DNA of 64,000 bases from Gammaproteobacteria bacterium (GTDB taxonomy: Bacteria; Pseudomonadota; Gammaproteobacteria; Pseudomonadales; Pseudohongiellaceae), in the NCBI GenBank assembly GCA_024639905.1, contig JAHEGE010000001.1, positions 62,001-126,000 on the forward strand, read 5' to 3'. Every line of letters starts with the position of its first letter. Position 1 is the first letter of the stretch. Shown one piece after another: positions 7,714 to 46,488 of the stretch. The notes beneath the pieces were generated by a model. The model was not told where the DNA came from and made no database searches. It worked only from the letters and a program-made list of their open reading frames with translations. Both the position numbers and the translations under genes were made by a program.

Positions 7714-7727
7714 ATGACATAAATCAA
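7714..7727. promoter_or_regulatory. Candidate FNR/Anr-type box upstream of copper monooxygenase
   Basis: ATGAC-N4-ATCAA matches the TTGAT-N4-ATCAA consensus at eight of ten positions. It lies 34 nt before the start codon at 7762. The remainder of the 7487-7761 gap shows no gene. If FNR acted as a class II activator the transcript would start almost at the ATG, so repression or another arrangement is equally possible. Confidence 0.4.
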
Positions 7728-7761
7728 CATTCAAAAATAATAATCAGTAAGGAGATGCTCC

Positions 7762-9156
7762 ATGCGCAGGAATCAGCTGTCAGATCGGATGCTAGCTTGC
7801 TCGACTTCTCGCTACTCTCATCACCTCCGCTTTGCGGTTCCAGCGCTGGCAGCACTATGTTTTGGCGCTGGCGCCGCTGCGCAAGAGGCGGCTCCCACTT
7901 TTTATGCGGATGCCTTACCACTGTTCGAGAAAAACTGTGCAGCCTGCCATCAGCCCGACGGCCCCCGTGTCGGCGGCATTACTGCCCCGATGTCGCTGCT
8001 TGATTACACACAGGCGCGCGCCTGGGCGCCGATGATCCGCAATGCACTAGTAACCGGTTACATGCCGCCGTGGGGCGCTCACGAGCGCCATCGTGGCGAG
8101 TTTAAAGATGAGCGCTACATCGACGAAGCCGAAAAGGCGTTACTTGTCGCGTGGGTAGATGGCGGTGCGCTGGAAGGCGACCCGGCACAGGCGCGCAGGC
8201 AGGACACCGCGGCAAGCAGCGGCACCGCTATGCCCGAGTCAGGCTGGTGGATTGGCAAGCCCGACCTAGAAGTGCAATTTGAGCAACCCGTAGAGGTCGC
8301 CGACAGTGTCGAAGACTGGCAGCCAACGATTCAAATGCCGGTACCGGAAGACGCGCACGCGGAACCGAAGTGGATTGCCAAAGCCGAGCTAAACCCCGGC
8401 GGCCCCTGGGTGCATCACATCGTCTCTAGCCACATGGGCGTCGGCGTGCCGGGCCGCGGCCCGTTTACCTACCCTGAGGGGTGGGGTGTCTTGATGCCGG
8501 AAGACCCCTTCATCACCGTGAACATGCACTACCATAAGAACCCTGGCGAGGGCACCGCGGTGACCGACATGACCAAGGCCGGCTTCGTGTTTTATGACGA
8601 CGGTGCGGTAATTGATCACGTGGTTGAGACCAACCTGTTGCCGCATAACGGCTGGACCATTCCCGCCGGCGATCCGAATTTTAAGGTGACCAATACCCAT
8701 GAGATCGAGGAGGACATCTTCTTGCTGTCTATGGGGCCGCATATGCACTATCGCGGCAAGGCGATGCGTTACGAGGTGGAATACCCCGACGGCGAGCGAG
8801 AGACGCTGTTGTGGGTGCCTGACTACGACTTCAACTGGCAGTTTTTGTACGAATACGAAGAACCGAAGTTCCTGCCTAAAGGCTCTGTACTTCACCTGTC
8901 GTGGTGGTTCGATAATTCGGCAAACAACCGCTTCAATCCCGATCCCAGCGCCGAGGTGGTTTACGGTCCTGAGACGACCGATGAGATGGCTAATGCCCGC
9001 ATCTATTTCGCCCCCACCACTAAGCGCGGCATAGTCGTCGGCGATGCTATCCCGCAGGATGTCTTGGATACCGCCCGCGAAGAAGACCAGCGTCGCCGCG
9101 CCAGTGCAGACCTGCTCGTATTAGGCGAAGACGACCTCTCCTGGCTGCAGGAATAA
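7762..9156 (+). CDS. Exported cytochrome c / PHM-type copper monooxygenase fusion
   Basis: A 464-residue exported protein. The signal peptide spans about 1-40 (ends GAAAQ), followed by a c-type haem site CAACH at 59-63 and then a domain resembling peptidylglycine/dopamine monooxygenases. All PHM copper ligands have apparent counterparts: HH near 218 (VHHIV), MHYH near 256, HMHYRG near 327-329 (aligning with PHM HTHHLG) and the Met in TTDEMANARIYF (PHM SSDEMCNLY). A two-copper hydroxylase fed electrons by the attached haem is inferred; the substrate is unknown. Strong AAGGAG site at 7749. A PEBP gene follows after a repeat. Confidence 0.85.
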   Translation: MRRNQLSDRMLACSTSRYSHHLRFAVPALAALCFGAGAAAQEAAPTFYADALPLFEKNCAACHQPDGPRVGGITAPMSLLDYTQARAWAPMIRNALVTGYMPPWGAHERHRGEFKDERYIDEAEKALLVAWVDGGALEGDPAQARRQDTAASSGTAMPESGWWIGKPDLEVQFEQPVEVADSVEDWQPTIQMPVPEDAHAEPKWIAKAELNPGGPWVHHIVSSHMGVGVPGRGPFTYPEGWGVLMPEDPFITVNMHYHKNPGEGTAVTDMTKAGFVFYDDGAVIDHVVETNLLPHNGWTIPAGDPNFKVTNTHEIEEDIFLLSMGPHMHYRGKAMRYEVEYPDGERETLLWVPDYDFNWQFLYEYEEPKFLPKGSVLHLSWWFDNSANNRFNPDPSAEVVYGPETTDEMANARIYFAPTTKRGIVVGDAIPQDVLDTAREEDQRRRASADLLVLGEDDLSWLQE

Positions 9157-9168
9157 CCCGAAGTCAAA

Positions 9169-9290
9169 CCCGGGGTCAGGTCTTTCATCGATGCATATTT
9201 CCTACAGAATGCGTGACGAACTGGGCTATCAACTCTACTATGCATCGATGCAAGACCTGACCCCCATGCATCGATGAAAGACCTGACCCA
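9169..9290. repeat. REP-like inverted repeat, copy C (compound)
   Basis: One left arm (9169-9196, identical to copy A) is followed by two right arms in tandem (9240-9265 and 9266-9290). The first of these has GATGCAAGAC in place of GATGAAAGAC. The 43-nt loop differs from that of copy A. It starts 12 nt after the copper-monooxygenase stop. The doubled arm suggests serial insertion or unequal exchange. Confidence 0.9.
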
Positions 9291-9349
9291 TTTACCGATG
9301 CACCAACCACCGCCCCCAACCACTGACCCCATCCACCTAGGAGATCATA

Positions 9350-9943
9350 ATGACACAGACTTTTTTCTCGAAAACCTTCGCTGCCTACTTATTCGCTGCC
9401 ACGGCATTCGGCATAAGCATCGCCAATGCCGCAGACGTGCCCGAAACTATCGAGGTTACTAGCAGCGTATTCGCCCATCACGGGATGGTGCCGGATGAGT
9501 ATTCCGCCTACGGCGCGAACAAATCTATCGATCTGAACTGGGCGAACTTGCCAGAGGGCACAGTGCAGTTGGCGGTGGTTTGCGACGACCCAAAAGTAGT
9601 CGAGCTTGGCATGATGCCGACGCCTTTCGTGCACTGGGTCGCCTATAACATTCCAGCAAGCGCGAGTGGCTTGCCAGAAGCCATGCCAAGTGATGCCGAA
9701 GTGGCAGGCATTGACGGTCTCGACGGTATGATTAACGGCGTTAATGGTCTGCGCCGCACCGGTTACTTCGGGCCGCGTCCACCCGCCAATGGTCAACTTC
9801 ATGCCTACCACTACCGCGTCTACGCAATCGATGCGGATCTCGGCCTCGAGGCTGGGCTCGGTCGCGATGAATTGCTCGCTGCGATCGACGGCCATGTCCT
9901 CGCCACGGGTATGTTGATGGGGCATTACGAGCGCAAAGAGTAG
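9350..9943 (+). CDS. Exported YbhB/YbcL-family (PEBP, Raf-kinase-inhibitor-like) protein
   Basis: A 197-residue protein with a signal peptide (about 1-26, FGISIANAAD). It is followed by a phosphatidylethanolamine-binding-protein fold: WANLPEGTVQLAVVCDDP matches the family's DPDAP-type strand, HWVAYNIPAS the ligand-pocket His segment, and YFGPRPPANGQLHAYHYRVYAID the GPxPP...HxYxF motif. The molecular function of bacterial PEBP proteins is unclear. AGGAG at the right distance supports the ATG at 9350. Last gene before tRNA-fMet. Confidence 0.9.
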   Translation: MTQTFFSKTFAAYLFAATAFGISIANAADVPETIEVTSSVFAHHGMVPDEYSAYGANKSIDLNWANLPEGTVQLAVVCDDPKVVELGMMPTPFVHWVAYNIPASASGLPEAMPSDAEVAGIDGLDGMINGVNGLRRTGYFGPRPPANGQLHAYHYRVYAIDADLGLEAGLGRDELLAAIDGHVLATGMLMGHYERKE

Positions 9944-9994
9944 TTCTCTCCGCAGAGCGCGCGTCCGTTGGTGGATGTTACACAGGGTGGGGCC

Positions 9995-10023
9995 TTGACG
10001 GAGGTTACAGCAAGGCCTATACT
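9995..10023 (+). promoter_or_regulatory. Sigma-70 promoter of tRNA-fMet
   Basis: TTGACG (9995-10000), a 17-bp spacer and TATACT (10018-10023), about 60 bp before the initiator tRNA. This is the best promoter match in the window and shows that the tRNA keeps its own promoter despite the inserted genes on both sides. Confidence 0.8.
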
Positions 10024-10083
10024 CTCGCTCCTTATCTAGTTGCGCTTCTAAGTGTAACGGCCAGTAAAGATTACCCAGTTTGT

Positions 10084-10160
<77 letters not shown>

Positions 10161-10210
10161 CTTTCCTTTGAGAGATGTTTTCGAGATGCCCGACAGGGCT
10201 CATCTCTTCA

Positions 10211-10261
10211 TGGGGCGCAGCCGCTCGAAGGTCGTAGATCCAAAATCTGCCCCCGATACCA
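10211..10261 (+). pseudogene. Degenerate tRNA-fMet copy lacking the anticodon arm
   Basis: A 51-nt segment 50 bp after tRNA-fMet. Its last 35 nt (10227-10261) match the tRNA 3' end at 30 of 35 positions, including the terminal ACCA. Before that, GCTCG runs directly into AAGGTCG, exactly as if the anticodon stem-loop had been deleted. It cannot form a tRNA. It may be a remnant of a tandem duplication or of an integration event at the tRNA 3' end. Confidence 0.75.
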
Positions 10262-10294
10262 CAACAACTTCCCGTCAGTGCCGAGAAGATAAAG

Positions 10295-10317
10295 AGCCCG
10301 CGAATGCGGGCTTTTTT
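10295..10317 (+). terminator. Rho-independent terminator after tRNA-fMet
   Basis: Stem GCCCGC/GCGGGC with a four-base loop and six Ts. It ends the tRNA-fMet transcript, separating it from the convergent amidohydrolase gene. It therefore also cuts the tRNA off from rimP, with which it is normally co-transcribed. Confidence 0.9.
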
Positions 10318-10353
10318 GTGCGCAGCAAAAAGTAGACTGTAGATAAGTCCTAC

Positions 10354-13300
10354 CTACCTAATCGACCCCTGCGGCGTAGTCTGCCAGTGGAAAGGCGTCA
10401 GCGCCTCAGTCCCCGTGACCTCCTCGCCAAGGTCGCCGGCACGGTAGAGGCGACCGTTGAGCATCACGTGGCTTATGCGGTCGGTGTTGCGAATGTCGTC
10501 GAGCGGATTCGCGTCGATGAGGATGAGGTCGGCGAGCTTGCCGGGCTCTAGCGAACCGAGGTCTTTATCCATGCCTAAATAGCGCGCGGGGTTAATGGTA
10601 GCCGTTGCAAGCGCCTCCATTGGTGTGAACCCGCCGCGTGCGAAGCTCCACATTTCCCAGTGGCTCGCGAGTCCTTCGCGCTGACCGTGTGCGCCAATGT
10701 TAACCATAATGCCGTCGAGCATGAGGATTCTCGCGGCCGCTGCGGCGTCATCATCGCGGTAGTCTTCTTCTGGCGCGGTGACGCGTCGTACTGAGCGTGC
10801 CTGCAACTCTGCTGGCGGCACGAAGTTACTCAAGATCGGGTGTTTCCACACTTCTGTATTCTGATAGAAATAGTCTTCCGAGGTGAGCCCGCCGTAGGTC
10901 ACTACTAGAGTTGGCGTGTAGCCGGCGCCAGACTGACGCCAGAACTGATGCACGTCGTCGTACATCTTTAGTGTAGGAACGTTGTGCTCGATACCGGTGA
11001 TGCCGTCGGCGATCATGCTCATGTCGAGCTGAAACAGCGAGCCGCCTTCGGCGACGCTGATTAAGCCTTCTTGGCGTGCGGCTTCTATCACCTGTTGACG
11101 CTGCTCGCGCCGCGGCTGGTTGTAGTTTTTCACGCTTATCGCGCCTTGGGCTGCGAGTCTGCGGACGTGGGCGAGCGCGTCGTCTAACTCGTCGATAGGC
11201 GCCCAGCTTGTGCTTCTAGCGCCGTACACGATCTCGCCAGTAGAGAAGATTCTCGGGCCTAGGATACGGCCAGCGCGCGCATATTCTGCGGCGGCAAAAG
11301 CAGACTTCGCGCTGCTCGAAGGATTGTGCACGGTGGTTACGCCAAGCGCCAGATGAGCGAGAAGATTCCAGTTCTGCTGAGGAATTATCTCGCCCGCGGC
11401 GTAGGGGCCGTGAGCATGAGCATCGACAATCCCTGGCATGACAGTCTTGCCGGCTGCGTCGATTTCAGTATAGCCCGCGGGCACGGCGCCGCCGCTACTA
11501 ATCGACTCGATGCGATTGCCGCGGATCAGCACGGTGGCATTGTCGATAACAGATCGAGCAGCGTCCATGGTAATAACGCGGGCATGAGTGATTGCCACAG
11601 TGGATTCTGGGTTGGCGTGATCCACCTGCATGCTGAGGTTGTTTGCAATGGCAGGTGGCTCGTAATCCGCCTGCATTAAGTCGTTGAGCGAGACGGTCTT
11701 AAACTCTGCCCCCACCGACCAACTAATCGTCTTACTATCACTAGACCAGGCGATATACGTCGCGCCAACCTCGCTCGCTTGACGCACTAAAAAGGCAGGC
11801 TTCGACGCATCTAGATCGAGCGTTCCCGAAAAATTCGATCGCGCGGCCACATGCAGTTGAAACTGGTTAATGAAGGCGATGTAGTTGCCATCAGGAGAAA
11901 GACGGAGCTCGCTAGCAAATTCCGCCTCTGCAACAGGCCGTCGGTCTTTGCCATTGCGGTCAATCGAGACCAGCTGGGTTACGGCTGTTGAGCTGCCGCG
12001 GCCTTCTGCGCTCTCGTTGCGCTCTTGCAGATAAATCCGGCCGTCGGGCCCGAAATGCGGATTAGACCCGCTGCTCGCCACGAAGCGCATGTCCTCGTTT
12101 TTAATGTCGTATAAATAAATGCCGGGCTCGTTGCCGAAATTGGGGTGAAGCAGGCTGCTCCCAGCTCGCTTTCTGATCAGCAGCTCGTCGCCGTTGGCGC
12201 TAATGGCTAGGTCATCGTACTGCCCCTTAGCGAGATCAAGCTGACGCGGCGCGCCGCCGCGGGCGCGAACCCGATACAGCGTGCTCAGGCTAGAGTCATT
12301 CCAGCGCAGAAAATAGATCGACTCTCCATCGGGCGAATAGATCGGTGAGTAGTCGAAACCGTCGTCTGCACCGCGCCCTGTGCGTCGGTAGAGGGGTTCG
12401 GGTGCTGCGTCGCCGCGCTTAATAAACAACTGTCCCAGCGATTCGAATACAACCGAATCTGCGCCGGGTGAGGGCTGAGGGTAGCGCACCATCTTCGTGT
12501 AAAACGTTGCTGGGGCGACGTCTACTGTTCCGCGTAGCGGTGGGTAGATCTGCCGAGTGTCGGCGACATGAAAAGGAATCTCTGCGACAGCTTCGGTAGC
12601 GATGTCTAATTTGAAGATTTTGCCGTCTGCCCAGAAGACGATCGCGCTGGAGTCTGGCAGCCAGTCCATAGTTGGATAAAAACCATGAACCGCCCACGTC
12701 TCCTGCATGTCGGGATCCAGCTGTGCGTAAACCATGCGCTCCTCGCCGGTGGCGAGGTTCATTACAAAAAGCCGCGACTCGGCCCTTACCCGCTTAACGT
12801 AGGCAAGCCTGCTGCCGTCAGGCGAAGGCGTGGGGCGCACCGCGCCACCAGGCCCACCTGCGACAGTGCTTATCGCTGCCGTCGGAAGGTCTAGCCGGCG
12901 AATTTGAAAAAGCTCGGTGTTGCTGTCTTCGTGATAAATAAACGTATTGCCCGGCGAGACATTGCGCACGAAGTAAAGCGCCTCTCCGCTTGGTGCGAAT
13001 GCTGGCTCTCCTTGTTCTTTCTGGAAATTGTCGCTCGGGCGCGCGACCAAGCGCTGCCCTGACAGAGACTCATCTCCCTGGGAGTCGTAAAGCCAAATCT
13101 CGCCAGTGCCTAGCGATCGAGACGTCGTAAAGTGCTTGCGCGCCGCGATATAGCGGCCATCGGGGCTCCATGACGGGCTATTTAATAGCCGAAACGATTC
13201 ATAGGTCACCTGATGCGTCTCCTGGCTCGCAAGGTCTAGTGTCCAGATGTTGTCGCCCCCGGCGCGGTCACTGGTGAACGCTATACGCTTTCCGTCTGGG

Positions 13301-13590: not shown

Positions 13591-13725
13591 GATTTTTCGC
13601 CATTGTTGCAATAGACTTTAGGGTACACGCGTCGTTCTCGTTGTAAAAGAACTTGAGCGGCTAGCTGACTGTTATTGGTTATTGGTAGAGGCCGCGAAGA
13701 GGTGGCAAGAAACGGCCTACTAGCA

Positions 13726-13769
13726 ACAAAAAAGCCGCCACCGAGACTTATCAGGCCTCGGTGGCGGCT
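13726..13769 (-). terminator. Rho-independent terminator after rhodopsin
   Basis: A stem of about 13 bp (AGCCGCCACCGAG with its complement at about 13757-13769) followed, reading on the minus strand, by a run of six Ts. It ends the rhodopsin transcript about 55 bp beyond its stop codon, so rhodopsin is likely monocistronic. Confidence 0.92.
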
Positions 13770-13821
13770 TCGTCACAGCTTTTGTCGCAGGCCAGAGAAG
13801 TGGCCAGGTGCGAGTTTTAGC

Positions 13822-14601
13822 TTAAGCGTGGCTTTTCGCGTTGCTGTCTTCGTTCGCGGCGTACCAAATGAACAGGCCGAAGGCGATTTTGTTCAAGACG
13901 TCTGCGAGGTTGTACACGATGTTAAGCGTGCCTTCGTCGGTGCCGCCTGCTAGATAGCCGAGGAAGTAACCGATAGGGTAGATTGCCCAACCAATTGTGA
14001 CAGTCCACTTCATTAGGCCGTAAGCCTTTTGAACTGCGGGTGGCGCTTGACCCGCTGCAACCTTGCTGGCCTCTCCTGCGAAGATTTCGTAGAGAATGTA
14101 AGCCCAACCCAACATGCCAATGACAAAACCTACTGTCGCGTTAATGTAGCCTGCCTCACCCATGTAGCCGGGAACGAGCATGACCAACGTGCCGATTAGC
14201 AGGCGCCAGAAGATTCCGCCGGAAACAGTCGCGATAGCGGCAAGGATCAGATAAAACTCGATCATCAACAGCGGTACGGTTAGTAACCAATCGATATATC
14301 TAAAGTCGGTCGGAGTGTTACCTGTGGTAACCCACACGTCTCTCATATAGAAATAGTGGAACGCGGCAATAAATGTAACGAGTGCGCTTACCGTCAATGA
14401 GGTCGCCCACTTACCGCCTAGTCTAAGCGCTTCCATCAGGAAGAAAATCGTCGAGGCCGCTAGGGCCATTGATATCAGCCAAAATGAGTAGCCGACGAAG
14501 TCGCCGGACTGCAGCATGGCTGAGTCATTCGATGCAGCGAGGCTTATCTGACTTACAGTCAGCCCTGACAGCAGGAGCATAGCTTTAATCATCTTTTGCA
14601 T
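13822..14601 (-). CDS. Proteorhodopsin, green-absorbing proton pump type
   Basis: Seven-helix light-driven proton pump of the inner membrane, 259 residues, with a signal sequence at about 1-22. Key residues by alignment to green proteorhodopsin are all present: His82 (H75), Asp104 as proton acceptor (D97), Thr108 (T101), Leu112 at the tuning position (L105, green), Glu115 as proton donor (E108), Asp234 (D227) and the retinal Schiff-base Lys238 (K231). The DTE motif identifies an outward proton pump. ATG with GGAG seven bases upstream. It is transcribed divergently from crtE, with a 173-bp shared control region; the facing genes provide retinal. Confidence 0.97.
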   Translation of the reverse strand: MQKMIKAMLLLSGLTVSQISLAASNDSAMLQSGDFVGYSFWLISMALAASTIFFLMEALRLGGKWATSLTVSALVTFIAAFHYFYMRDVWVTTGNTPTDFRYIDWLLTVPLLMIEFYLILAAIATVSGGIFWRLLIGTLVMLVPGYMGEAGYINATVGFVIGMLGWAYILYEIFAGEASKVAAGQAPPAVQKAYGLMKWTVTIGWAIYPIGYFLGYLAGGTDEGTLNIVYNLADVLNKIAFGLFIWYAANEDSNAKSHA

Positions 14602-14659
14602 GTGAATCTCCAGTATTTATTGTTCTATTTTGTAATCTTTATGCGTTGTTTATGACGTT

Positions 14660-14674
14660 GTACACAATGTGTGC
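14660..14674. promoter_or_regulatory. Inverted repeat between rhodopsin and crtE (candidate operator)
   Basis: GTACACAATGTGTGC: ACACA and TGTGT are perfect arms around one A, with an outer G/C pair and one mismatch. It lies between the divergent rhodopsin and crtE genes, 59 bp from the rhodopsin start. A TTGTAC half on the minus strand could serve as a -35 element. TGTACA-type sites are used by light-responsive LitR/CarH-type MerR regulators, but only one half fits, so the regulator is a guess. Confidence 0.35.
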
Positions 14675-14728
14675 CTAATTTAGAACGATCTGCATTTAAC
14701 TTGAGATCACAAAGATTGATAACTCAGG

Positions 14729-14744
14729 TGCGAAAAATGTCGCA
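14729..14744. promoter_or_regulatory. TGCGA-N6-TCGCA inverted repeat before crtE
   Basis: Short dyad 30 bp upstream of the crtE start codon, flanked as GTGCGA....TGTCGCAT. A similar but longer palindrome (GTGCGACA.../TGTCGCAC) lies upstream of the copper-type TonB receptor at 46431. The spacer differs by one base, so a common regulator is possible but unproven. Confidence 0.3.
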
Positions 14745-30492: not shown

Positions 30493-30506
30493 TTGACATA
30501 GATCAA
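30493..30506. promoter_or_regulatory. FNR/Anr-type box upstream of second copper protein
   Basis: TTGAC-N4-ATCAA, nine of ten consensus positions, 141 bp before the start at 30648 and after the pnp terminator, so it can only serve the downstream gene. A TATGTA/TGTAAT -10-like element lies at 30560-30567, about 60-70 bp further on, a distance compatible with class I activation. Confidence 0.6.
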
Positions 30507-30647
30507 GCGAAGTGAGAATCGCTCGCCACACTCACTGTGAGCCGCTAAATTCGACCGCCTATGTAATTTTGTGTCTTGACCACGCCTTATTTCGGGTCAA
30601 CAATCCAATCACCGCTAGTTAACTGATTGTTCACTATGGAGAAGACA

Positions 30648-32081
30648 ATGACTGTAAAGAATAAAATTGTCCCAGCCCTCGGTTTCGCTTTGGTATGCAG
30701 TGCCTTTGCAGGCTCCGCCGCAAGTGCCGCCGACGGGGTGACCTTCCACAAAGATATCGAGCCTATTCTGCAACGCAGCTGTCAGAACTGCCACCGCCCG
30801 GGCGGGGCGGGGCCTATGTCTTTGCTCACGTATGAAGAAGTCGCGCCCTTCGCCGGACTTATCGAATACAAGACAGGCCTGCGCGACCGCGCGGGGGCGA
30901 TGCCGCCTTGGTATATGGAAAAGAATATCGGCATACAGAATTACAAGAACGACCCCTCACTCACCGATGCCGAGCTCGAGGCGATATCCACGTGGGCACG
31001 CAGTGGCACACCCAAGGGTGACGAAGCCGATGCGCCGGCGGCGCTTGTCTTCGATGACAGCGTCAAATGGACGGCGGGGATGCCTGACCTCATTGTGACG
31101 ACCAACAGTGTCACCAAGCTGGCTGGCACGCCCGACTGGTGGGGCGAAATCGACCGCGTGCCGACAGGGCTTACTGAAGACCGCTGGGTAAAATCGGTGG
31201 AGATCGTCGAGGTAAACGATGTCGACAGCCAGCAAGGCACCGGCCGCGATACCGTGGGCGGACGCTATATTTTCCATCACATGATTTGGGGAACCGCCGA
31301 CCTCGACGAGAATGGTGAGCGCATCCCTAGCACCAACACCAGCTGGCCGGTGCACGAAGTAGGGCGCAACCCCGACGTCTTCGATCCCGACGGCGGCCGC
31401 TTGCTCAAGGCAGGCACGTACATCGTCTCAGACTCGGTGCATTTGCACTCCAATGGCAAAGACACCACCGGCCACCTCGAGATTGGCTTCCGCTTTCACG
31501 ACGAGGGCTATGAGCCCAAATATGAGCGCGTGAATGTCGGCCTCGGCAACGGCGTCGACATTTCGATCGCCGGTAATCAGAAGGATCAGGAGCTGCACGC
31601 GTACTCGGTGCTGCAACAGCACACCAAGATCATTACCTTCGAGCCTCATCTGCACGCCCCGGGCGAGCGCATGTGCCTCGAGGCGATCTGGGGCTATACC
31701 ATCGAGACGCTGTCCTGTGTGGGCTACGACCACAACTGGGTTCGCGGCTATGGCTACGCCGATACCGCGATGCCACTCCTGCCCAAGGGCACGATCCTGC
31801 ACATCGTCGGCTACATGAACAATACCGACAGCAACCCCAATATTCCCGATCCGCGCAACTGGCAGGGCTCGGGTAATCGTTCGGTGACTAATATGTTCAT
31901 CGACTTGGGCATGCGCGTCTCGATGAACGACGAGCAGTTTCATGCAGAAATGGCGAAGCGCCGAGATGATCTTAATCTCGGTCCCAACGATCATGTGATA
32001 GGATGCCCGCTGTGCTCTGCGCCGCTAGTTGCGCCTATCGCGCAGGCCAGAGATGCAGAGCCCAGTAGAGCGGCAGATTAA
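30648..32081 (+). CDS. Exported cytochrome c / PHM-like copper protein, second paralogue
   Basis: About 477 residues with a signal peptide (ending AASAAD) and a haem site CQNCH (near residue 45), then a domain related to that of the protein at 7762. Histidine motifs are FHHMIWG, VHLHSNG and EPHLHAPGERM (the HxH CuM pair). At the place where PHM has its Met ligand (DEMCN) this protein reads SVTNMFIDL, so the Met may be missing or shifted. The ATG at 30648 has GGAG six bases upstream. It probably forms an operon with the secreted protein at 32147. An FNR-type box lies upstream. Substrate unknown. Confidence 0.8.
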   Translation: MTVKNKIVPALGFALVCSAFAGSAASAADGVTFHKDIEPILQRSCQNCHRPGGAGPMSLLTYEEVAPFAGLIEYKTGLRDRAGAMPPWYMEKNIGIQNYKNDPSLTDAELEAISTWARSGTPKGDEADAPAALVFDDSVKWTAGMPDLIVTTNSVTKLAGTPDWWGEIDRVPTGLTEDRWVKSVEIVEVNDVDSQQGTGRDTVGGRYIFHHMIWGTADLDENGERIPSTNTSWPVHEVGRNPDVFDPDGGRLLKAGTYIVSDSVHLHSNGKDTTGHLEIGFRFHDEGYEPKYERVNVGLGNGVDISIAGNQKDQELHAYSVLQQHTKIITFEPHLHAPGERMCLEAIWGYTIETLSCVGYDHNWVRGYGYADTAMPLLPKGTILHIVGYMNNTDSNPNIPDPRNWQGSGNRSVTNMFIDLGMRVSMNDEQFHAEMAKRRDDLNLGPNDHVIGCPLCSAPLVAPIAQARDAEPSRAAD

Positions 32082-38951: not shown

Positions 38952-38956
38952 CAGTG

Positions 38957-40909
38957 TCAGGCCGCGGAACTGCGTTTCATTGCCAATGCTTTCTCCAAAA
39001 CTTCGGCGAGCTGCACCTTCTGGAACGGCTTGGTGAGGTAGGCGTCGACCCCAGCGGCGAGCCCGAGATCGCGATCTGTAGTCATCGCATTGGCAGAACA
39101 GGCCACGATGGGCAGTGCGCCGCCGGCGTCAGCCAGCGCGCTGTCGCCTCGCCTAATCATCTCGGTGAGTTCTATCCCACCCATCTCAGGCATGCTGATA
39201 TCGGTGAGCAGGATATCGAAACGATTGGCCGACAGGGCGTCGAGCGCCTTCAATCCATTGCTCACAAGCGTGCAGTGATACCCCAGCGATTCGAGTTGAG
39301 TCTGAAAGAGAAGTTGATTGATCTCGTTGTCTTCGGCAACCAAGATTCTCAAGGCATTCTTGGGCGCGATTGGCGTTTTTGAAGCCGCGGCGCTCGCCGC
39401 GGGGGGCATCGTGGCAGCGCCGGTGCCCGGAGCCTCGGACTTGTTCATCGCCACGGGTTTGCAACAAGCCTTATCGAGTATTTCCTTAGACTCTCCCTCT
39501 GAAATTACCGCGGTTTGTAAGGTGATGCTGAACTCCGACCCGGTACCTTTCACGGATTTAACTTCTATACTCCCCTGCATAAGATCGACGATGCGTTGGC
39601 TAATAGTCAGGCCTATGCCTGTGCCATCTATAGAACTGGCGCTCTGGCTCAGGCGTTCGAAGGGCGCGAATATGCGGCCAGCCTCTTCTTGCGAAAAGCC
39701 GATGCCCGTATCGCGAACTCGAATGCTCACCGTGGCGGGAGTGTGCGAATCGACTTCGATATAAACCCTGCCACCCTTGCGGTTATATTTAATGGCGTTG
39801 CTTAACAGATTGATGATGACTTGTTTGAGGCGCAAAGGGTCGGCTTGCACGCAGCACACATCCGGCGCGAGTGGCAGAACGATGAGCGAGACGTCGTGGC
39901 TTGCCGCGAAGTGCGACGTCATCGATTGGCACTGGTCCAAAATATCGGGCAAGTAGACGGGTTGTAGGGTCACCTGCAGTGAGCCTGATTCAAGTCGTGA
40001 GAGGTCGAGAATTTCATTCACGAGTTCGAGGAGGTGATGGCCGGACTGATTAATGGCCTCGAACTGTCGTCGATGTTCGGCGCTGAGTTTCTCACTATTC
40101 AATCCTAGCCCGGAGAATCCCAGAACCGAATTCAGTGGCGTGCGCAGTTCGTGGCTCATGCGCGACATAAAACGTGACTTGGCGTTGTTCGCCTTCTCTG
40201 CGTCTTCCTTTAATTGGACGAGTTTTTTCTGCTGAGCCTGAGTTGTGCGACGGAAGCGGAAAAATTCACGGATTAGGTAGGAGATTTCACGACTGCGTGC
40301 GACCGGCAAGGGATAAGCGAAATCGCCCTTTGCCATCTTTTTGAACGCTGTCGTCAGTTCACGCACGGGCTTTGAGATGGCGGACTGTAAAAAGAGAATT
40401 GCGCCAAAGAGCGTAATGGCAACCAATAAGAAAAGCAGTAGCAGGAGTTTGTAGGTGAGGGCAAGCGCTTCGGCGAGTGCCTTTGAGTGATCGATGATGA
40501 GGTCGATACGCGCCAACGGGGTTGCGGCATTGCCGACTGGCGCTGAGACTAAGGTTTGAGAGCTCTCCAAGACCTCCGTCCACACACCGAGCGGATATAT
40601 TTGCTCGCCCGCAGTGTCTACGACGCGCATCCGCTTCCACGTCGGATCGCTGGCAAGCTGTGTGTCTAATCGGTAGTAGAGAAATTCATATTGCCTTGTG
40701 AGTAGCGGGTCGATGATGGTTGTTGCGAGTCCACCGAGCGATTGCCGTGCGGCTTCGTCGAGTCGTGCCTCCACGACTTCAGTTTGCCGCGGGATCACCA
40801 GGACAATCATAATCACTGCGACAAGCAGGGAAAAGATGCTGCTAATCGCTATCGAAATATGCAGCAGCGTTGGCCTTCTCATCTTCGATCTCGCTTCAGT
40901 TCTGGACAT
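38957..40909 (-). CDS. Hybrid sensor histidine kinase with receiver domain
   Basis: Membrane-bound hybrid kinase of 650 residues. Helix at about 17-40, extracytoplasmic loop to about 150, second helix about 152-178, a HAMP region about 178-235, dimerisation/phosphoacceptor motif FMSRMSHELRTPLNSVLGFS with His253, ATPase motifs NLLSNAIKYNRKGG and VRDTGIGFSQEE plus GTGIGLTIS, then a receiver domain with VAEDNEINQ and the phospho-acceptor Asp in LLTDISMPEMGG. No output domain, so a separate response regulator or phosphotransfer protein is needed; none is nearby. Its start overlaps the PhnD-like gene by 14 bp, implying that the binding protein is its ligand sensor. Confidence 0.93.
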   Translation of the reverse strand: MSRTEARSKMRRPTLLHISIAISSIFSLLVAVIMIVLVIPRQTEVVEARLDEAARQSLGGLATTIIDPLLTRQYEFLYYRLDTQLASDPTWKRMRVVDTAGEQIYPLGVWTEVLESSQTLVSAPVGNAATPLARIDLIIDHSKALAEALALTYKLLLLLFLLVAITLFGAILFLQSAISKPVRELTTAFKKMAKGDFAYPLPVARSREISYLIREFFRFRRTTQAQQKKLVQLKEDAEKANNAKSRFMSRMSHELRTPLNSVLGFSGLGLNSEKLSAEHRRQFEAINQSGHHLLELVNEILDLSRLESGSLQVTLQPVYLPDILDQCQSMTSHFAASHDVSLIVLPLAPDVCCVQADPLRLKQVIINLLSNAIKYNRKGGRVYIEVDSHTPATVSIRVRDTGIGFSQEEAGRIFAPFERLSQSASSIDGTGIGLTISQRIVDLMQGSIEVKSVKGTGSEFSITLQTAVISEGESKEILDKACCKPVAMNKSEAPGTGAATMPPAASAAASKTPIAPKNALRILVAEDNEINQLLFQTQLESLGYHCTLVSNGLKALDALSANRFDILLTDISMPEMGGIELTEMIRRGDSALADAGGALPIVACSANAMTTDRDLGLAAGVDAYLTKPFQKVQLAEVLEKALAMKRSSAA

Positions 40910-41726
40910 AGAAATCCCCCAGATTCCATTCGCGAAGAATCAGGTAGTCGTCGAGTGAGGCGGCGGCAGGCGCCTGTATCGGGACTTCTGCGAACAATGT
41001 AGCGCCGAGAGTAGACGCTGCGAAGTGATTAACAGCAATGATGAAACGGTCTCTTGCTTCGCTGCTCACGCGCGGATGAACGGAAATTGGGTGCGGCGAT
41101 ATTTCGCGAGTTTCATGGATCACCTTGAGTTGTTCCTGGATCGCGCTAGGCTGCGCGCGGAGCGTGCGCATGACACCGCCGCCTGCGATGCTCTTGCCCA
41201 GCGCTACATTGAGATAGACCGAAGGGTGTGTGCGCACGTAAAGCGGGAATACCTCAATGTTATAAAGCGTAGCGAGCTCAGCGCGCATGAGCAGCGAGGC
41301 GCCTAGCGCATTCGGAGAGGGGAAAGCGATCTCCGGTCGCTCGAGCTGCTCGATTCTGTTGATGCCGCTGTCGGCCCTAACCACGAGGACGCCCTTGAGG
41401 GTACTGGCGCCGTCGCGAATAATTGGAAGGTAACCCTGTGCTTCGTTCGCGATTACGCCGTGCCAGGGATTCATGTAGGCGAAGTCGTAGTCGCCGCGCT
41501 GGAAGGCGCTCTCGAACTCATTGATGTCGGGCTCTATGGTGAGCGTGTAAGTGTCGCCAGAGCGCGCCGATAGCTCGGCTAGCAGGGGCGACCAGATGTC
41601 GTTGATTCTTTGTGTGGTGAACTGCGGGACGACGCCGAAGGTAAACTCTTCGGCGAATAGATTGGCGCCAGCTAGGCTTAGCAGCAGAGCGAGGCTTAGT
41701 AGGGGATAGGCGAGCAACTTCTTCAT
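40896..41726 (-). CDS. PhnD-like periplasmic binding protein (sensor partner)
   Basis: 276 residues with a signal peptide (about 1-25, LAGANLFAEE). Domain as in phosphate/phosphite/phosphonate-binding ABC proteins: FGVVPQFTTQRINDIWSPLL, DYDFAYMNPWHGVIA and FPSPNALGASLLMRAELA. No ABC permease or ATPase adjoins, whereas the stop overlaps the start of the hybrid kinase. So the likely role is presenting a ligand to the kinase rather than transport. The ligand is not deducible. Confidence 0.87.
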   Translation of the reverse strand: MKKLLAYPLLSLALLLSLAGANLFAEEFTFGVVPQFTTQRINDIWSPLLAELSARSGDTYTLTIEPDINEFESAFQRGDYDFAYMNPWHGVIANEAQGYLPIIRDGASTLKGVLVVRADSGINRIEQLERPEIAFPSPNALGASLLMRAELATLYNIEVFPLYVRTHPSVYLNVALGKSIAGGGVMRTLRAQPSAIQEQLKVIHETREISPHPISVHPRVSSEARDRFIIAVNHFAASTLGATLFAEVPIQAPAAASLDDYLILREWNLGDFYVQN

Positions 41727-41835
41727 AGCGTGTCCAATTCATCGCCAGCGCAACGGCGATGTTATTCATCATATTGGACGAGACCCTCGGGGAGGGGATT
41801 TATCACGGTTTAGCTTGTATAAATTTGTATCAATT

Positions 41836-43548
41836 TTATGGTAAGGCGAAAACCCACACGACACCGCCCTGCGGCACGTAGGTGTTGGTGCCTTGTGACA
41901 TGTTGATTAGGTTCTGTTCGCGTTGGGCATCGACGCCCCAGCCAGCCTGCACGGCGACGTATTGCTTGCCCTCGACAGTGAAGGTCACTGGCACGCCGAT
42001 GACGCCAGAGTTGGTTGGGTACTCCCACAAGGTTTCGCCGCTGGCGGAATCGAATGCGCGAAACTTGCGATCGTTGGTGCCGCCCATGAAGACAAGGTCA
42101 CCACCGGTCGCTAAAGTGGGCCCCCAGTTGTGGCTGTCGAAGGTTGTCGTCCATGCGCGTTCGCCGGTATCGACATTCCAGGCTTGTAGCTCACCAATAT
42201 GGTCAGCGCCATCGCGGACATAGAAGCCGCCGTTCTCCGAGGTGCCACGCCCCATGTACGCGCGGCCAGGACTGTATTCGACTTCTTCGCCAACCATGGT
42301 GGAACACACATTCTCGTTAGCGGGGATGAAGAGTAGGCGCGACGCGGGGTCGAAGGACGCAGGGGGCCAGTCTTTGCCACCCCATAGTGAGGGGCAGAAG
42401 CTCGCTTCGTATCCAGTGCCCGGCTTCTTGCTCATGTCGTATTCGGGGCGCCCAGTTACTGAGTCCACGCTAGTGAAGACATCCTGATAGACATAGGGTG
42501 TGGCATCGACGAAATCGATCGCTTCGGCGCCTCGTTCAAGAAACCATAGATAGCCATTGCGCCCTGCATGCACGAGGCCCTTAACGCGCTGTCCTTCGCG
42601 CTCGTAGTCGATGAGCAGCGGCGCGGCAACCTCGTCCCAGTCCCACGAGTCGTTCCAGTGATACTGGTGGTGGTTCTTTAGCTCGCCAGTGCTGGGATCT
42701 ATCGCGATCACCGAAGTGGAATACAGGTTGTCGCCGGGACGCGTGTCACCCATCCAAGGCCCGCCGTTGCCAGTGCCCCAGTAGGTGAGATTGAGCTCGG
42801 GGTCATAAGAGCCGGTTATCCAAACGGGCACGCCACCGGTTTTCCAGCTGTCGCCGGGCCAAGATTCGGAGCCGGGCTCGCCCGGCGCAGGAATCGTATA
42901 AGTCTTCCACAGCTCTGCGCCAGTCTCAGCGTCATAGGCCGCGACGAAGCCGCGAATGCCAAGCTCGCCGCCGGACACGCCCACCATAACAACCCCGTCG
43001 ACGATAAGCGGCGCCATTGTCATGTAGTAGCCACTGTAATAGTCCTCAACGGCGACTTCCCAATCGACTTCGCCGGTGACAGCGTCGAGTGCGACAAGGT
43101 AAGAGTCGACGGTAGCAAGGTAGGCGCGCTCACCCCACAGGGCTACGCCGCGATTGGTTGGGTGAAACTGCTGGAGGTCGTCGGGCAAGTAGCGCACGTA
43201 GCGCCATAGCAGCTCGCCCGTCGCTGCATTCAGCGCCAGCACGTGGTTCTGGGGCGTTGCGACATACATGTAACCGGCGTTCACTATCGGCGGCGCTTGG
43301 TGCCCTTCGCGAAGGCCAGTAGAAAAGCTCCACACCGGCTCGAGGTCTGCGACCGTCTCCCGATCGATCTGATCGAGCGGGCTGTAGCCATGGGAATCGT
43401 AACTGCCGCGATAGAGTAGCCAGCTGTCGCTGTCTTGCTCAAGCAGTCGTTCGCCGGTAACAGGCTGATAGGGCTTCAATGCCTGAGCGCCTACCGATGA
43501 GACTGTCAAAATGGACAGCAAAGCGAAGAGGGGTCTTAAGTTGAACAT
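41836..43548 (-). CDS. PQQ-dependent dehydrogenase
   Basis: Exported quinoprotein of 570 residues with a signal peptide (about 1-20, VSSVGAQ). Eight-bladed propeller features: YSPLDQIDRETVADLEPVWS, VLALNAATGELLWRY, GNGGPWMGDTRPGDNLYSTSV, and WYQWDYD-like NSWDWDEVAAPLLID. The adjacent vicinal cysteine pair of methanol dehydrogenases is not visible (GVSGGELGIRG lies in the region), so it is probably an alcohol or aldehyde dehydrogenase of another type. It follows a Rieske protein by 66 bp on the same strand, likely electron acceptor. RBS GAGG upstream of ATG. Confidence 0.88.
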   Translation of the reverse strand: MFNLRPLFALLSILTVSSVGAQALKPYQPVTGERLLEQDSDSWLLYRGSYDSHGYSPLDQIDRETVADLEPVWSFSTGLREGHQAPPIVNAGYMYVATPQNHVLALNAATGELLWRYVRYLPDDLQQFHPTNRGVALWGERAYLATVDSYLVALDAVTGEVDWEVAVEDYYSGYYMTMAPLIVDGVVMVGVSGGELGIRGFVAAYDAETGAELWKTYTIPAPGEPGSESWPGDSWKTGGVPVWITGSYDPELNLTYWGTGNGGPWMGDTRPGDNLYSTSVIAIDPSTGELKNHHQYHWNDSWDWDEVAAPLLIDYEREGQRVKGLVHAGRNGYLWFLERGAEAIDFVDATPYVYQDVFTSVDSVTGRPEYDMSKKPGTGYEASFCPSLWGGKDWPPASFDPASRLLFIPANENVCSTMVGEEVEYSPGRAYMGRGTSENGGFYVRDGADHIGELQAWNVDTGERAWTTTFDSHNWGPTLATGGDLVFMGGTNDRKFRAFDSASGETLWEYPTNSGVIGVPVTFTVEGKQYVAVQAGWGVDAQREQNLINMSQGTNTYVPQGGVVWVFALP

Positions 43549-43614
43549 GCGGTGGCGCCTCTATAAGGGGGGGCGCGAGATACTGAAACTAGGCAGCGCC
43601 GAAAGGTGATGAAG

Positions 43615-44181
43615 TTAGAACTGCTGGGTGAAACCGACTCTGCCAGTAAATCCCGCAGCAACGACTACGCTGCCAGATTCAAGTGACAGCGGTAAAATAG
43701 CAAGGGGGCGAGGAGCAGGTCCGCCAACAACATTGGCGCCGTTATACACGTCAAAATGGGACTCGTGACAAGGACAAGCCATAAGCAGTTTGTCTTCGAC
43801 CCAGTTGATCACGTCACAGCCTGTATGAGTGCACACGGCAGAGAAGGCAATAACGCCCGCCGCGGCGTGAGGCTTGGTCGCTTCGCTGAGCTTTGTCGGA
43901 TCTAGGCGCGTGATCATTACGCGATTGAGTCTGGATCCATCGCGAAGCGTGCTTGTTGCTGGGTCTTTGGCAAGAGCCGCAACGGGGCGCTGCTCGAGCG
44001 CTAATAGGTCTGGCGTAATGCGCTGCCCGCTGTTCTCACCGCCATCGAAAACAAGCCAGTCTCCCGGCTGCGGGCGCGCACGATTGGGTGGTTGGGCCCA
44101 ACTTTTCGTAGGGATTGCGATACCGACGCCGAGCCCTGCTTTCAGGAGCGCTCGGCGATCGAGAGTGGTGCGATTGGTCAT
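43615..44181 (-). CDS. Exported Rieske [2Fe-2S] protein
   Basis: 188 residues with an N-terminal twin-arginine motif TLDRRALLKAGLGVG. Rieske cluster ligands are in CTHTGC and CPCHESHFD near residues 118-143. It resembles the Rieske proteins that accompany exported oxidoreductases rather than the bc1 Rieske, since no cytochrome b or c1 gene adjoins. It precedes the PQQ dehydrogenase in the same direction and may take electrons from it; inferred. Confidence 0.87.
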   Translation of the reverse strand: MTNRTTLDRRALLKAGLGVGIAIPTKSWAQPPNRARPQPGDWLVFDGGENSGQRITPDLLALEQRPVAALAKDPATSTLRDGSRLNRVMITRLDPTKLSEATKPHAAAGVIAFSAVCTHTGCDVINWVEDKLLMACPCHESHFDVYNGANVVGGPAPRPLAILPLSLESGSVVVAAGFTGRVGFTQQF

Positions 44182-44231
44182 GGGTTCGACTTTTGCTTAA
44201 TGTCTATAACCCAAGAATGTATCACGAAAGT

Positions 44232-46367
44232 TTAAAAATTCCACATCACACGCGCATAGAGGTTGCGCCCCAGGCCCGGCATGCGGCTGCGCCCAGCGAT
44301 GTCTGGGTTGTAGGCACGGTTATACGCAGCGAGGTGATCGAGATACTCTTCGTCGAGCAAGTTCTCCGCGCCCACACGCACTTCAATACCCTCGGCGATT
44401 TCGGTTCTTGCCATCACGTTGATGAGCGAATACCCCTCCGTCGCCTGCTCTAGGTTCGTTACTGCGATGCGGTTTTGGTCTGCATAGTTCACGCCCTCGA
44501 TTGACGCGCTCCAGCCCTGACCACGGTAATCTAGCGCGACGAGCAGGTTGTCTGGCGAGACGCGGTAGAGGTTGTCGTTAATGTCGCGGCGTTCGGCGCG
44601 GACGATATTAAGAATCGCACGCAGAGTCACGCTGTCATTAAGTGCGTAATGAGCGTCGACATCCATGCCATAAAAGCGCGCGTCGACATTGCTAAACTCT
44701 AGCGGGTTGGGTAGGCCCATGCCCATATTCGCCATCATCTGCGCGAAGTTCACTGCGGTCATATTGCTCGACGGCGTGCCTTGAATGTAATCGTTCACGC
44801 GCTTGTAGAAGGCGCGTGGATAGATGCCGTAGCGAGCGTTTTCGTAGTCGAGGCCGAGTTCGATTTCGTGAGCGACTTCGGGCTTAAGACGAGGATTACC
44901 GGTGTAGGTTTTGCCATCGGCGAGTCCGCCGGTCGCCTCGAGCGGTATCCACAGGTAGCGTTCTTGGTAGGAGGGCGAGCGCGTCTTGCGCGCGGCACCG
45001 ACATACCACGTCGCGTCGCCATCGGTCTCATAGCTCAGGCGCGCGAAGGCATCGACGTTGGTGTCTGATTGGTCGAGGTCGCTATTGTTGAACTGTGTCG
45101 ACAGCATACCTGCCATGTTGTTCATCATGACGGGCATGCCCATCATCATATTCATCGGATTGAGGTTGGCGGAGACGGGTAGGGAGCCCATTTCGACCTG
45201 ATTCACGCGGATGCCCGCTTCCAGACCGGTACGTGCGTTGAGTGAAACTTCGCGCTCGACGAAGGCGCCGATAATGTCGCGATTGACGTCGTGGAAATTC
45301 GCTATAAGGAATGCCGCCGCGTTCGGGTTAGTGATTATCGAGCGATGTTCGGCGAAGTGGCCGTCGATGCCGAACAGCCAGCTGCCGTCGTCGGTGAGCT
45401 GCTTGAGGTTTACCGCAAAACCGTAATTCTCACTCACCGCCCAGTTGCGGCGATAGCGCATCGTGCCTGCACCCATCATGTTGTCCTGTGGAGGACGCCT
45501 TAAGTGGTAGTTGGTCATCCAGTGTTCGTTGTCGCTGGCCGAGAGTTCGACGGTAAATACGCGGTCGTCCGCATCGTAAACATAACGCGAGCGAAACAGG
45601 TCGCTGTCTATCGACAGGATGTCCATCGGCAATGAGGCGGTGCCGGCATCTTTGGTGTTATTGCGCGCGAAATCGAAAGTGAAAGAATGCGGGCCGCTTT
45701 GAAAGCTATAGCCGAGATCGAAGCGTTCTCGCTCGTATTCCGACGGTCTGATTTCACCGCCTGGGAATTCGAGATCGTCGCCCTGTTCCTGCATCGCGAA
45801 GCCGCGGAACAGATGAGTGTCGTTGGCGACCGAAAAGAATCCGCTCAGCACAGTGCCGCCATTCACCGTTTGGCCGCCGGTGTAGGCGCGACCACCGAAC
45901 TCGAAGTCGCTACCCGCGCCGAAGTCGCCGGCATAGGTTTTGGCCTCGACATAGCCGCCGAGTGTCTCTTGGCCCTTGCTAACGGGCACGATGCCGCGGT
46001 TGATGGTGAGCGACTCGAGTATCGCAACCGGGGCATAGTGCAGGGGTGCGTCCATTGCGTTGGGGCCTGCACCATTGATCTGAGCGCCATCGACGGCGAC
46101 GCGGATACGGTCGCCGAACATGCCGCGGTACTGTGCGATTCCCGTGAGTTCACCGTTCTTGTTCACATTCGCGCCGGGCATCTTGCGCAGCAGCTGCGCC
46201 GTATCGGGCGTGGCAACAAGCGTGTCGTCAACGATTACCGTGTGTGAATCACGCACGCCTACTACCGTGATTTCTTCGATGCGCTGGGCATCTTGCGCAA
46301 GCGCGAGCTGGCTCATGGGCAGGGCGCTGGCAATAGCAAAGGCGAGTGACTGACGCTTGATGTTCAT
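44232..46367 (-). CDS. TonB-dependent receptor, copper-type
   Basis: Outer-membrane barrel of about 711 residues. Signal peptide MNIKRQSLAFAIASALPMSQLALAQ-type (ends ALAQ), then a plug domain (RIEEITVVGVRDSHTV, LRKMPGANVNKNGELTGIAQYRGMFG in pieces) and a barrel ending in RVMWNF. Methionine clusters stand out: NMMGAGTMRYRRNW near residues 292-306 and NPMNMMMGMPVMMNNMAGML near 397-421. These resemble copper-type receptors (NosA/OprC). ATG at 46367 has GGAG upstream. Two candidate operators, an FNR box and a 23-nt palindrome, lie in the 304-bp gap to the divergent lipoprotein gene. Copper is inferred from the Met motifs. Confidence 0.85.
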   Translation of the reverse strand: MNIKRQSLAFAIASALPMSQLALAQDAQRIEEITVVGVRDSHTVIVDDTLVATPDTAQLLRKMPGANVNKNGELTGIAQYRGMFGDRIRVAVDGAQINGAGPNAMDAPLHYAPVAILESLTINRGIVPVSKGQETLGGYVEAKTYAGDFGAGSDFEFGGRAYTGGQTVNGGTVLSGFFSVANDTHLFRGFAMQEQGDDLEFPGGEIRPSEYERERFDLGYSFQSGPHSFTFDFARNNTKDAGTASLPMDILSIDSDLFRSRYVYDADDRVFTVELSASDNEHWMTNYHLRRPPQDNMMGAGTMRYRRNWAVSENYGFAVNLKQLTDDGSWLFGIDGHFAEHRSIITNPNAAAFLIANFHDVNRDIIGAFVEREVSLNARTGLEAGIRVNQVEMGSLPVSANLNPMNMMMGMPVMMNNMAGMLSTQFNNSDLDQSDTNVDAFARLSYETDGDATWYVGAARKTRSPSYQERYLWIPLEATGGLADGKTYTGNPRLKPEVAHEIELGLDYENARYGIYPRAFYKRVNDYIQGTPSSNMTAVNFAQMMANMGMGLPNPLEFSNVDARFYGMDVDAHYALNDSVTLRAILNIVRAERRDINDNLYRVSPDNLLVALDYRGQGWSASIEGVNYADQNRIAVTNLEQATEGYSLINVMARTEIAEGIEVRVGAENLLDEEYLDHLAAYNRAYNPDIAGRSRMPGLGRNLYARVMWNF

Positions 46368-46430
46368 AAGGGTTCTCCGTGATAGCTGTCTAATTTTCAG
46401 GGCGCATTCTAAGCGTTCCGCGCCGAGGGA

Positions 46431-46453
46431 GGGTGCGACACGATGTCGCACCC
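46431..46453. promoter_or_regulatory. Perfect palindrome upstream of the copper-type receptor
   Basis: GGGTGCGACA/TGTCGCACCC, ten-nt perfect arms around CGA, about 64 bp before the receptor start. It is the strongest short dyad in the gap and looks like an operator rather than a terminator, having no T-run. A related GTGCGA...TGTCGCAT dyad lies before crtE (14729). Confidence 0.55.
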
Positions 46454-46474
46454 AGCGGCTTACTCCTCGATTGA

Positions 46475-46488
46475 TTGATGTGGATCAA
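46475..46488. promoter_or_regulatory. Perfect FNR/Anr box
   Basis: TTGAT-GTGG-ATCAA matches the FNR consensus at all ten positions. It lies 108 bp before the copper-type receptor (minus strand) and 184 bp before the lipoprotein at 46672 (plus strand). With the boxes at 7714 and 30493 it suggests oxygen-responsive control of copper genes. Confidence 0.7.

Follow-up and report, generated by a model that had tools for sequence, protein, structure and literature searches.

We analyzed a stretch of 64,000 nucleotides (the window) from a 2.668-Mb gammaproteobacterial genome assembled in 26 contigs. The window encodes a TonB-dependent receptor related to the copper receptor OprC and two fusions of cytochrome c to a PHM-like domain (Table 1). 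An earlier note on this DNA had placed FNR-type boxes before all three genes and proposed a regulon answering to copper and oxygen. The letters and coordinates of the three boxes proved correct when checked against the sequence, and the genes had been described correctly in kind, the fusions having conserved PHM-type copper ligands and the receptor no PDB relatives at E ≤ 0.001 other than OprC sequences (best E 1.8e-20). The receptor nevertheless scores far below the threshold of the copper-receptor family TIGR01778 (145.6 bits, cut-off 472), and the CxxxM-HxM copper site of OprC is incomplete in it and in its relatives: Gly replaces OprC Cys143 in all 30 readable loci among 70 examined, the other 40 having been dropped for want of a pattern match in the plug motif, Met147 is kept, and an HxM-type motif, the counterpart of His323-x-Met325, occurs in 26 of the 30. 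We describe the protein as copper-receptor-like; it may work like a copper receptor and is not classified within OprC/NosA. Its closest named relatives come from uncultured gammaproteobacteria, including an OM182 bacterium. In four of the five loci whose receptors are at least 79% identical, and in none of the others, the Rieske-domain gene lies behind the receptor gene.

Table 1. Features of the window, with one related gene from another contig of the same genome
Feature	Position	Strand	Details
FNR-type box ATGACATAAATCAA	7714..7727		2 mismatches to TTGATN4ATCAA; unconserved, most likely chance
Cytochrome c–PHM-like fusion	7762..9156	+	PF03712 only at E 0.0036, below cut-off
FNR-type box TTGACATAGATCAA	30493..30506		1 mismatch; L107 and L109, the closest relatives, have perfect boxes
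Sigma-70-like element TTGACC-17-AACAAT	30576..30604	+	Found by eye; common to this genome, L107 and L109; downstream of the box at 30493
Cytochrome c–PHM-like fusion	30648..32081	+	Directly downstream of pnp
PQQ-dependent alcohol dehydrogenase family protein	41836..43548	-	TIGR03075 549 bits, over cut-off; third gene in line
Rieske-domain protein	43615..44181	-	Directly follows the receptor gene
TonB-dependent receptor related to OprC (copper)	44232..46367	-	ATG at 46367
Predicted -10 hexamer TAGAAT, receptor promoter	46406..46411	-	31 bp from palindrome centre
Candidate RegA/PrrA-type palindrome TGCGACA-N3-TGTCGCA	46434..46450		Centre 46442, ~-43; between FNR box and receptor
FNR-type box TTGATGTGGATCAA	46475..46488		0 mismatches; centre 46481.5, ~-82.5 from predicted receptor transcription start
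Third PHM-like gene	contig C1, 32843-34108		Outside the window; CTGATTTAGATCAA upstream

FNR-type boxes in the window were counted at three stringencies: 34 matches against 18.6 expected with at most two mismatches, four against 1.4 with at most one (P 0.045), and one against 0.04 for the perfect box (P 0.04). Because so many two-mismatch matches occur, a lone site of that quality, such as the one at 7714, carries no weight. The whole genome holds 80 boxes with at most one mismatch, three of them perfect; by the ORF rule used, only the perfect box at 46475 lies outside ORFs, and one of the other two lies in the last codons of an ORF. Among the 51 boxes that were placed, 38 fall inside ORFs and 13 outside, above the 12.3% expected (P 0.008). 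Within 350 bp downstream of these 13 boxes are 13 genes, including the receptor gene and two PHM-like genes; three copper-type genes among 13 give a rough hypergeometric P of 6e-5, calculated for an extrapolated total of 2001 genes and with 51 of the 80 boxes placed. Also among the downstream genes, mostly named by eye, are fnr, uspA, and genes for a bc1 Rieske protein, a c-type cytochrome, an ion-channel-like protein, and a NosR-like protein. The remaining genes downstream of boxes outside ORFs look unrelated. The genome encodes FNR (NF008365, 270 bits, cut-off 228), and the protein displays cluster cysteines and a recognition helix, which we take to be the FNR cluster ligands and the DNA-recognition element; one-mismatch boxes precede fnr itself and the neighboring UspA gene.

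The box in front of the receptor is conserved. It is present with at most one mismatch within 450 bp in 19 of the 24 loci that have upstream DNA and a receptor at least 57% identical (L185 and L209, which have no usable upstream DNA, were left out of the receptor counts), and in seven of nine same-genus orthologs of 60–80% identity, the exceptions being L025, without a box nearby, and L032, with two-mismatch words only. The two receptor sets share species and include near-duplicates, so that their counts are not independent. At the genome-wide box density, 1.4% of 480-bp segments would be expected to contain such a box, a figure that may run higher in intergenic DNA. No box with at most one mismatch was found in the other five of the 24 loci (L168, L179, L186, L189, and L205); in L186 and L189 a two-mismatch box occupies the same distance from the palindrome described below as in the box-bearing loci, 39.5 bp in L186 (Pseudohongiella nitratireducens), whose palindrome is perfect. 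Among relatives, the half-sites of the box are constant and its central four bases variable. Receptors of less than 50% identity have a box in only three of 18 loci in one set and five of 14 in the set that includes the same-genus orthologs, those five boxes all being of type TTGACxTGxATCAA. FNR-type control of the receptor, as the earlier note had it, thus gains support from a box kept in most loci and from an encoded FNR above its family cut-off; the concern that similar sites might be equally common at random applies to the site at 7714 and not to that at 46475.

Between the box and the receptor gene lies a perfect palindrome whose core sits in a perfect 23-bp inverted repeat (46431-46453). 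This element, which the earlier note did not mention, is conserved more broadly than the FNR box. Six of the nine same-genus orthologs (L024, L025, L026, L028, L029, and L030) have it in perfect form, L027 and L031 with one mismatch, and L032 with three. Receptors of three other families that have no FNR box nearby also possess it, perfect in L033 and L035 and with one mismatch in L034. The gene upstream of the receptor changes among relatives while the box and the palindrome persist, so the two elements most likely serve the receptor; for the same reason the divergent lipoprotein gene was ruled out as the target of the box. A CRP-type site was also considered and rejected for the palindrome, in which TGCGA and TCGCA stand 7 bp apart, the spacing of CRP half-sites being 6 bp. 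A literature search on the two half-site words gave only unrelated papers among the matches listed.

The two elements keep a regular geometry. Across the 19 box-bearing loci, the distance between the centers of box and palindrome is 38.5–39.5 bp in four, 49.5–50.5 bp in 10, and 115.5–126.5 bp in five, which places the box 38.5–50.5 bp from the palindrome in 14 loci and sets the two main spacing classes one helical turn apart; the palindrome of L181 has three mismatches. A -10-like hexamer, defined as TAnnnT agreeing with TATAAT at four or more positions, begins 31 or 32 bp from the center of the palindrome in 19 of 31 receptor promoters and is lacking there in the other 12; the next commonest distance, 41 and 42 bp, accounts for five matches. 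The 31 promoters are that of the window and 30 others with a palindrome of at most two mismatches, 12 of 42 other loci having been excluded for lacking one. Measured from the predicted -10 hexamer, the center of the palindrome would fall near -43 and that of the FNR box near -82.5 (-92.5 in the other spacing class). Such predicted positions would suit activation.

Over the whole genome the palindrome occurs three times in perfect form, never with a single mismatch, and 18 times with two mismatches, against 16 occurrences in all for the reversed control. The perfect copies lie before the receptor gene, before copC-copD, and in the gap separating an ABC-F-like gene from a receptor fragment. CopC and CopD score over the Pfam cut-offs and under those of NCBIfam. 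The fragment, of 141 residues, is read as a broken receptor from its likeness to L097 and has itself no family match among the Pfam and NCBIfam profiles. A perfect palindrome is found in 34 of 145 genomes of the order, this one included, and the reversed pattern in three of 145. We took one locus from each of 29 of the 33 other palindrome-bearing genomes, reading L084, L086, and L103 by eye. Eleven of the 29 read as receptor loci, and in seven the palindrome is directly followed by the gene of a RegB-like kinase, one of these being a receptor locus as well; in L084, kinase and regulator genes stand beside it. Three encode a DUF1775 protein (L088), an MbnP protein (L093), and a Met/His-rich protein (L089); DUF1775 is presumably the copper (YcnI) domain. 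Four are respiratory, with ccoN (L078), cydA at 213 bp (L094), petA at 165 bp (L101), and a gene for an FMN-binding protein (L087). L082, L091, L095, and L100 are ambiguous.

The form of the palindrome, GCGnCAnnnTGnCGC, is also that of the better RegA sites determined by ChIP-seq in Rhodobacter capsulatus, to judge from the part of that report available (PMC5359404); examples there are GCGTCAATATGGCGC and GTGACAATTTGTCCC, the latter preceding cydA. Many, indeed most, R. capsulatus sites in the same part of the source are more degenerate than the palindrome found here. Positions 46434-46450 fit GCGnC-N5-GnCGC, a general form that we summarized from the sites given there, and the available part of a second paper (PMC4064962) yielded no consensus. 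By its form, the palindrome appears to be a candidate RegA/PrrA-type site.

A possible partner is encoded in the genome, which has one RegB-like kinase gene followed by a regulator gene. Their best family matches are ActS/PrrB/RegB (215 bits, NCBIfam cut-off 350) and ActR/PrrA/RegA (182 bits, cut-off 250); both scores are below the cut-offs, and the pair is related to RegB/RegA and not filed as members. GGxxNP, one cysteine, and His columns are invariant in 12 aligned kinases; we take GGxxNP to be the RegB quinone site and the invariant cysteine to be the redox cysteine. No palindrome with at most three mismatches lies near the kinase gene of this genome. The kinase (E ≤ 1e-40) occurs in all 24 genomes that have the receptor (E ≤ 1e-50) and in 30 of 54 that do not (Fisher P 2e-5, uncorrected for ancestry), and within the genus in 20 of 20 with the receptor and 18 of 29 without (P 0.001, likewise uncorrected for ancestry). 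Kinase or regulator genes stand beside the receptor gene in L085, L194, and L198, and a regulator gene lies about 1 kb away in L179, these neighbors being named by eye except in L085.

FNR-type control finds support for some of the PHM-like genes, of which the genome has 12 (E ≤ 0.001, split matches joined). In 17 sequences, H210, H211, H265, and M416 are invariant and H334 and H336 are present in at least 90%; we take these HH, H, HxH, and M residues to be the PHM copper ligands. For each PHM-like family, 30 loci were taken from a larger number of matches, and L114, L163, L262, L266, L269, and L275 (no ORF) and L108 and L273 (little upstream DNA) were excluded from the counts that follow. For the gene at 30648, a box with at most one mismatch is found in five of 21 loci behind pnp (this genome, L107, L109, L118, and L120) and in seven of all 28 loci of the family, the additional two being L119 and L132, which are not among the 21. 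No box of this kind occurs within 320 bp of the gene's nearest paralog in this genome (80% identity). The box is thus kept in the nearest relatives and is probably real in a narrow lineage, but by eye it lies about 105–112 bp before the transcription start expected from the shared sigma-70-like element, which is not a standard FNR position. For the gene at 7762, none of 28 relatives has a box with at most one mismatch, including those of 84–86% identity; this family serves as a matched negative for the boxes that are kept. With two mismatches of its own, the site at 7714 was rejected as an FNR site and is most likely a chance occurrence.

The third PHM-like gene, on contig C1, makes a better case. 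Among the nine orthologs examined that are at least 78% identical, the box is present with at most one mismatch in six and, as a variant of the same type with two mismatches, in two more, and is absent from L263; none of 15 loci below 78% identity has it. A -10-like hexamer lies 28.5–29.5 bp from the box center, a class II distance, in L255, L259, L260, and L261, and the nearest one in our C1 gene is at 34.5 bp. Conserved boxes thus support FNR control for two of the 12 PHM-like genes, the one at 30648 and that on contig C1, only the former being in the window; the gene at 7762, whose box is unconserved, drops out. The idea of a copper/oxygen regulon is partly right accordingly, in that copper uptake appears to be its core and two PHM-like genes join the receptor.

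From this evidence we consider it likely that the box at 46475 functions as an FNR site, in the promoter of a putative outer-membrane importer of copper, and acts jointly with the RegA-type site. It is under this joint control that copper uptake appears to form the core of the regulon. In the mechanism that we envisage, the phosphorylated RegA-like regulator would bind near -43 and activate next to RNA polymerase, and FNR, active at low oxygen, would bind further up, at -82.5 or -92.5, and add activation. Copper import would then rise when oxygen falls or when the respiratory chain is over-reduced, a state that a copper shortage for the oxidases would also cause. The PHM-like genes at 30648 and on contig C1 would join through their own FNR boxes, and the gene at 7762 would not. 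Heme-copper oxidases and PHM-like enzymes are the likely users of the copper, and supply to the exported PHM-like enzymes is possible. A bolder version, which we put forward tentatively and would not ourselves favor, makes the RegB/RegA-like pair a sensor of copper supply read via the respiratory chain, with FNR as a second input matching demand to low oxygen. Low copper would stall the oxidases, the resulting over-reduced quinone pool would switch the RegB-like kinase, and the RegA-like regulator would drive import; the genes driven would be those of the receptor and CopC-CopD and, in relatives, those of the DUF1775 and MbnP proteins.

The same distribution of palindromes could be explained if they were operators of a dedicated copper-responsive regulator that is not RegA-like, with FNR only adding to its action. 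The perfect copies in this genome, at the copper-type receptor, copC-copD, and the receptor fragment, agree with that, as do the DUF1775 (L088) and MbnP (L093) genes that have the palindrome elsewhere, and copper represses oprC and NosA according to the part of PMC8610252 available. Evidence against a dedicated copper regulator comes from the RegB-like kinase genes downstream of the palindrome in seven of 29 loci, from ccoN, cydA, and petA adjoining it in three, and from its sharing the form of RegA sites (PMC5359404, in the part available); no other regulator gene was noticed directly downstream on reading the 29 loci, and a position near -43 suits an activator. We judge this explanation unlikely. 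It is quite improbable that copper is not the substrate and that the receptor imports something else, such as a metal needed by the PQQ dehydrogenase whose gene lies behind its own, as might be thought from the Rieske and PQQ dehydrogenase genes that follow it in the window and from the replacement of OprC Cys143 by Gly. Both genes follow only in close relatives whereas the promoter elements persist elsewhere, PepSY-like genes, named by eye, follow in L175, L176, and L195, and copC-copD has the same palindrome as the receptor; OprC, moreover, is the only PDB relative at the threshold used, and Met147 is retained, as is the HxM pair in most cases.

That the boxes are chance words fits the site at 7714, one of an excess of two-mismatch sites and unconserved, and it is in keeping with the many placed boxes inside ORFs; it fails by conservation for the box at 46475 and that of the C1 gene, the box at 30493 being a weaker case (five of 21 syntenic loci), and as a general explanation it is very improbable. 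Scarcely credible to us is that copper uptake under FNR feeds nitrous oxide reductase, as proposed for NosA, whose history invites the comparison (PMC8610252, in the part available). The NosR-like gene with an FNR-type box in this genome points the same way, but none of 49 genomes of the genus, this one included, has a match to TIGR04244 over the cut-off, some having short weak matches. Control on behalf of an enzyme of the TIGR04244 type was rejected on that ground; the model may miss other types of NosZ. Joint control of copper import by FNR and a RegA-type regulator is the reading that we retain.

If this reading is true, copper uptake would be tied to oxygen and to the redox state of the respiratory chain, not to copper alone; because two conserved, named sites stand in a compact promoter, the question is open to point mutations. 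What is new is the combination of known regulators, FNR and a RegA-type protein, on a known kind of target: the copper-uptake promoter of a marine gammaproteobacterium appears, by its sequence, to combine an FNR box with a RegA-type box at a helix-phased distance. We found no link between a RegA- or RoxR-type site and a copper receptor in the open-licence literature searched. OprC of Pseudomonas aeruginosa and NosA of P. stutzeri resemble the receptor described here in the counterparts of Met147 and His323-x-Met325, and differ from it in Cys143, replaced here by Gly, in the TIGR01778 score (145 bits here against the cut-off of 472), and in the two promoter elements proposed here. In the part of PMC8610252 available, both are made under anaerobic conditions, and expression of OprC is induced when oxygen is absent and repressed by copper, the mechanism of down-regulation being described as unsolved in 2021. 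Another TonB-dependent copper importer tied to respiratory oxidases, CrtA (BfrG) of Bordetella pertussis, has PepSY_TM neighbors and clusters separately from OprC; as far as the available part of the source goes (PMC12914433), it is regulated post-transcriptionally via the upstream ORF CruR, whereas we propose control at the promoter.

RegB/RegA, PrrB/PrrA, and ActS/ActR are the best family matches of the kinase–regulator pair in this genome and share with it the GGxxNP, Cys, and His columns and the form of the proposed DNA site; the pair differs in falling below the curated cut-offs and in its proposed target, copper uptake. Metal acquisition is already represented among RegA targets, in that the R. 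capsulatus regulon includes iron transport (PMC5359404) and Methylomonas RegA acts directly on feo and apparently indirectly on a TonB receptor for iron uptake (PMC13274454), both as stated in the parts of these papers available. With the gammaproteobacterial FNR regulon, finally, the genome has in common FNR itself and boxes before fnr and the genes for UspA, the bc1 Rieske protein, and a c-type cytochrome (names partly by eye), and it differs in counting a copper-type receptor and PHM-like fusions among the putative members.

The gene order of receptor, Rieske protein and PQQ dehydrogenase was found only in close relatives when the neighborhoods of receptor loci were compared. A second receptor-like gene of the own genome is associated with the RegA/PrrA-type palindrome (L066, C26:93188), and it looks broken, being a fragment of 141 residues. 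A second receptor subfamily, at 36-38% identity (loci L036, L037, L038, L042, and L044), has a degenerate palindrome and keeps the box TTGACxTGxATCAA, which lies ~110-130 bp upstream of the palindrome.

In five loci (L079, L080, L083, L089, and L104), the palindrome adjoins a gene for a Met/His-rich protein with a start of the type SRPDxHAPIxVMxDHxH, which has the RegB-like kinase as a neighbor in four of them. None of the four proteins tested (L080, L083, L089, and L104) matched an NCBIfam model, and that of L083 gave a PF13557 match below the cut-off. The protein is a candidate copper protein or co-sensor.

An FNR-type box was also detected upstream of a NosR-like gene, which is followed by a peroxiredoxin-like gene; nosZ was not found, with 0 of 49 genus genomes, the own genome included, exceeding the TIGR04244 cut-off. 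The catalase-peroxidase-like protein has an apparent signal peptide, judged by eye from the translation.

Coordinates of the features
Feature	Location	Remarks
NosR-like gene	L251 (own genome, contig C12) 10984-13020	
Bacteriorhodopsin-family protein	window 13822-14601	PF01036, 148 bits
Consecutive genes for the receptor, Rieske protein, and PQQ dehydrogenase	window 41836-46367	minus strand
Catalase-peroxidase-like protein	window 54267-56489	named by eye from translation

The genus has an expanded family of cytochrome c–PHM-like fusions (loci L049-L063, L107-L165, and L254-L282): the own genome encodes 12 such fusions, four of them together on contig C1 (35.5 kb), and its relatives encode many per genome.
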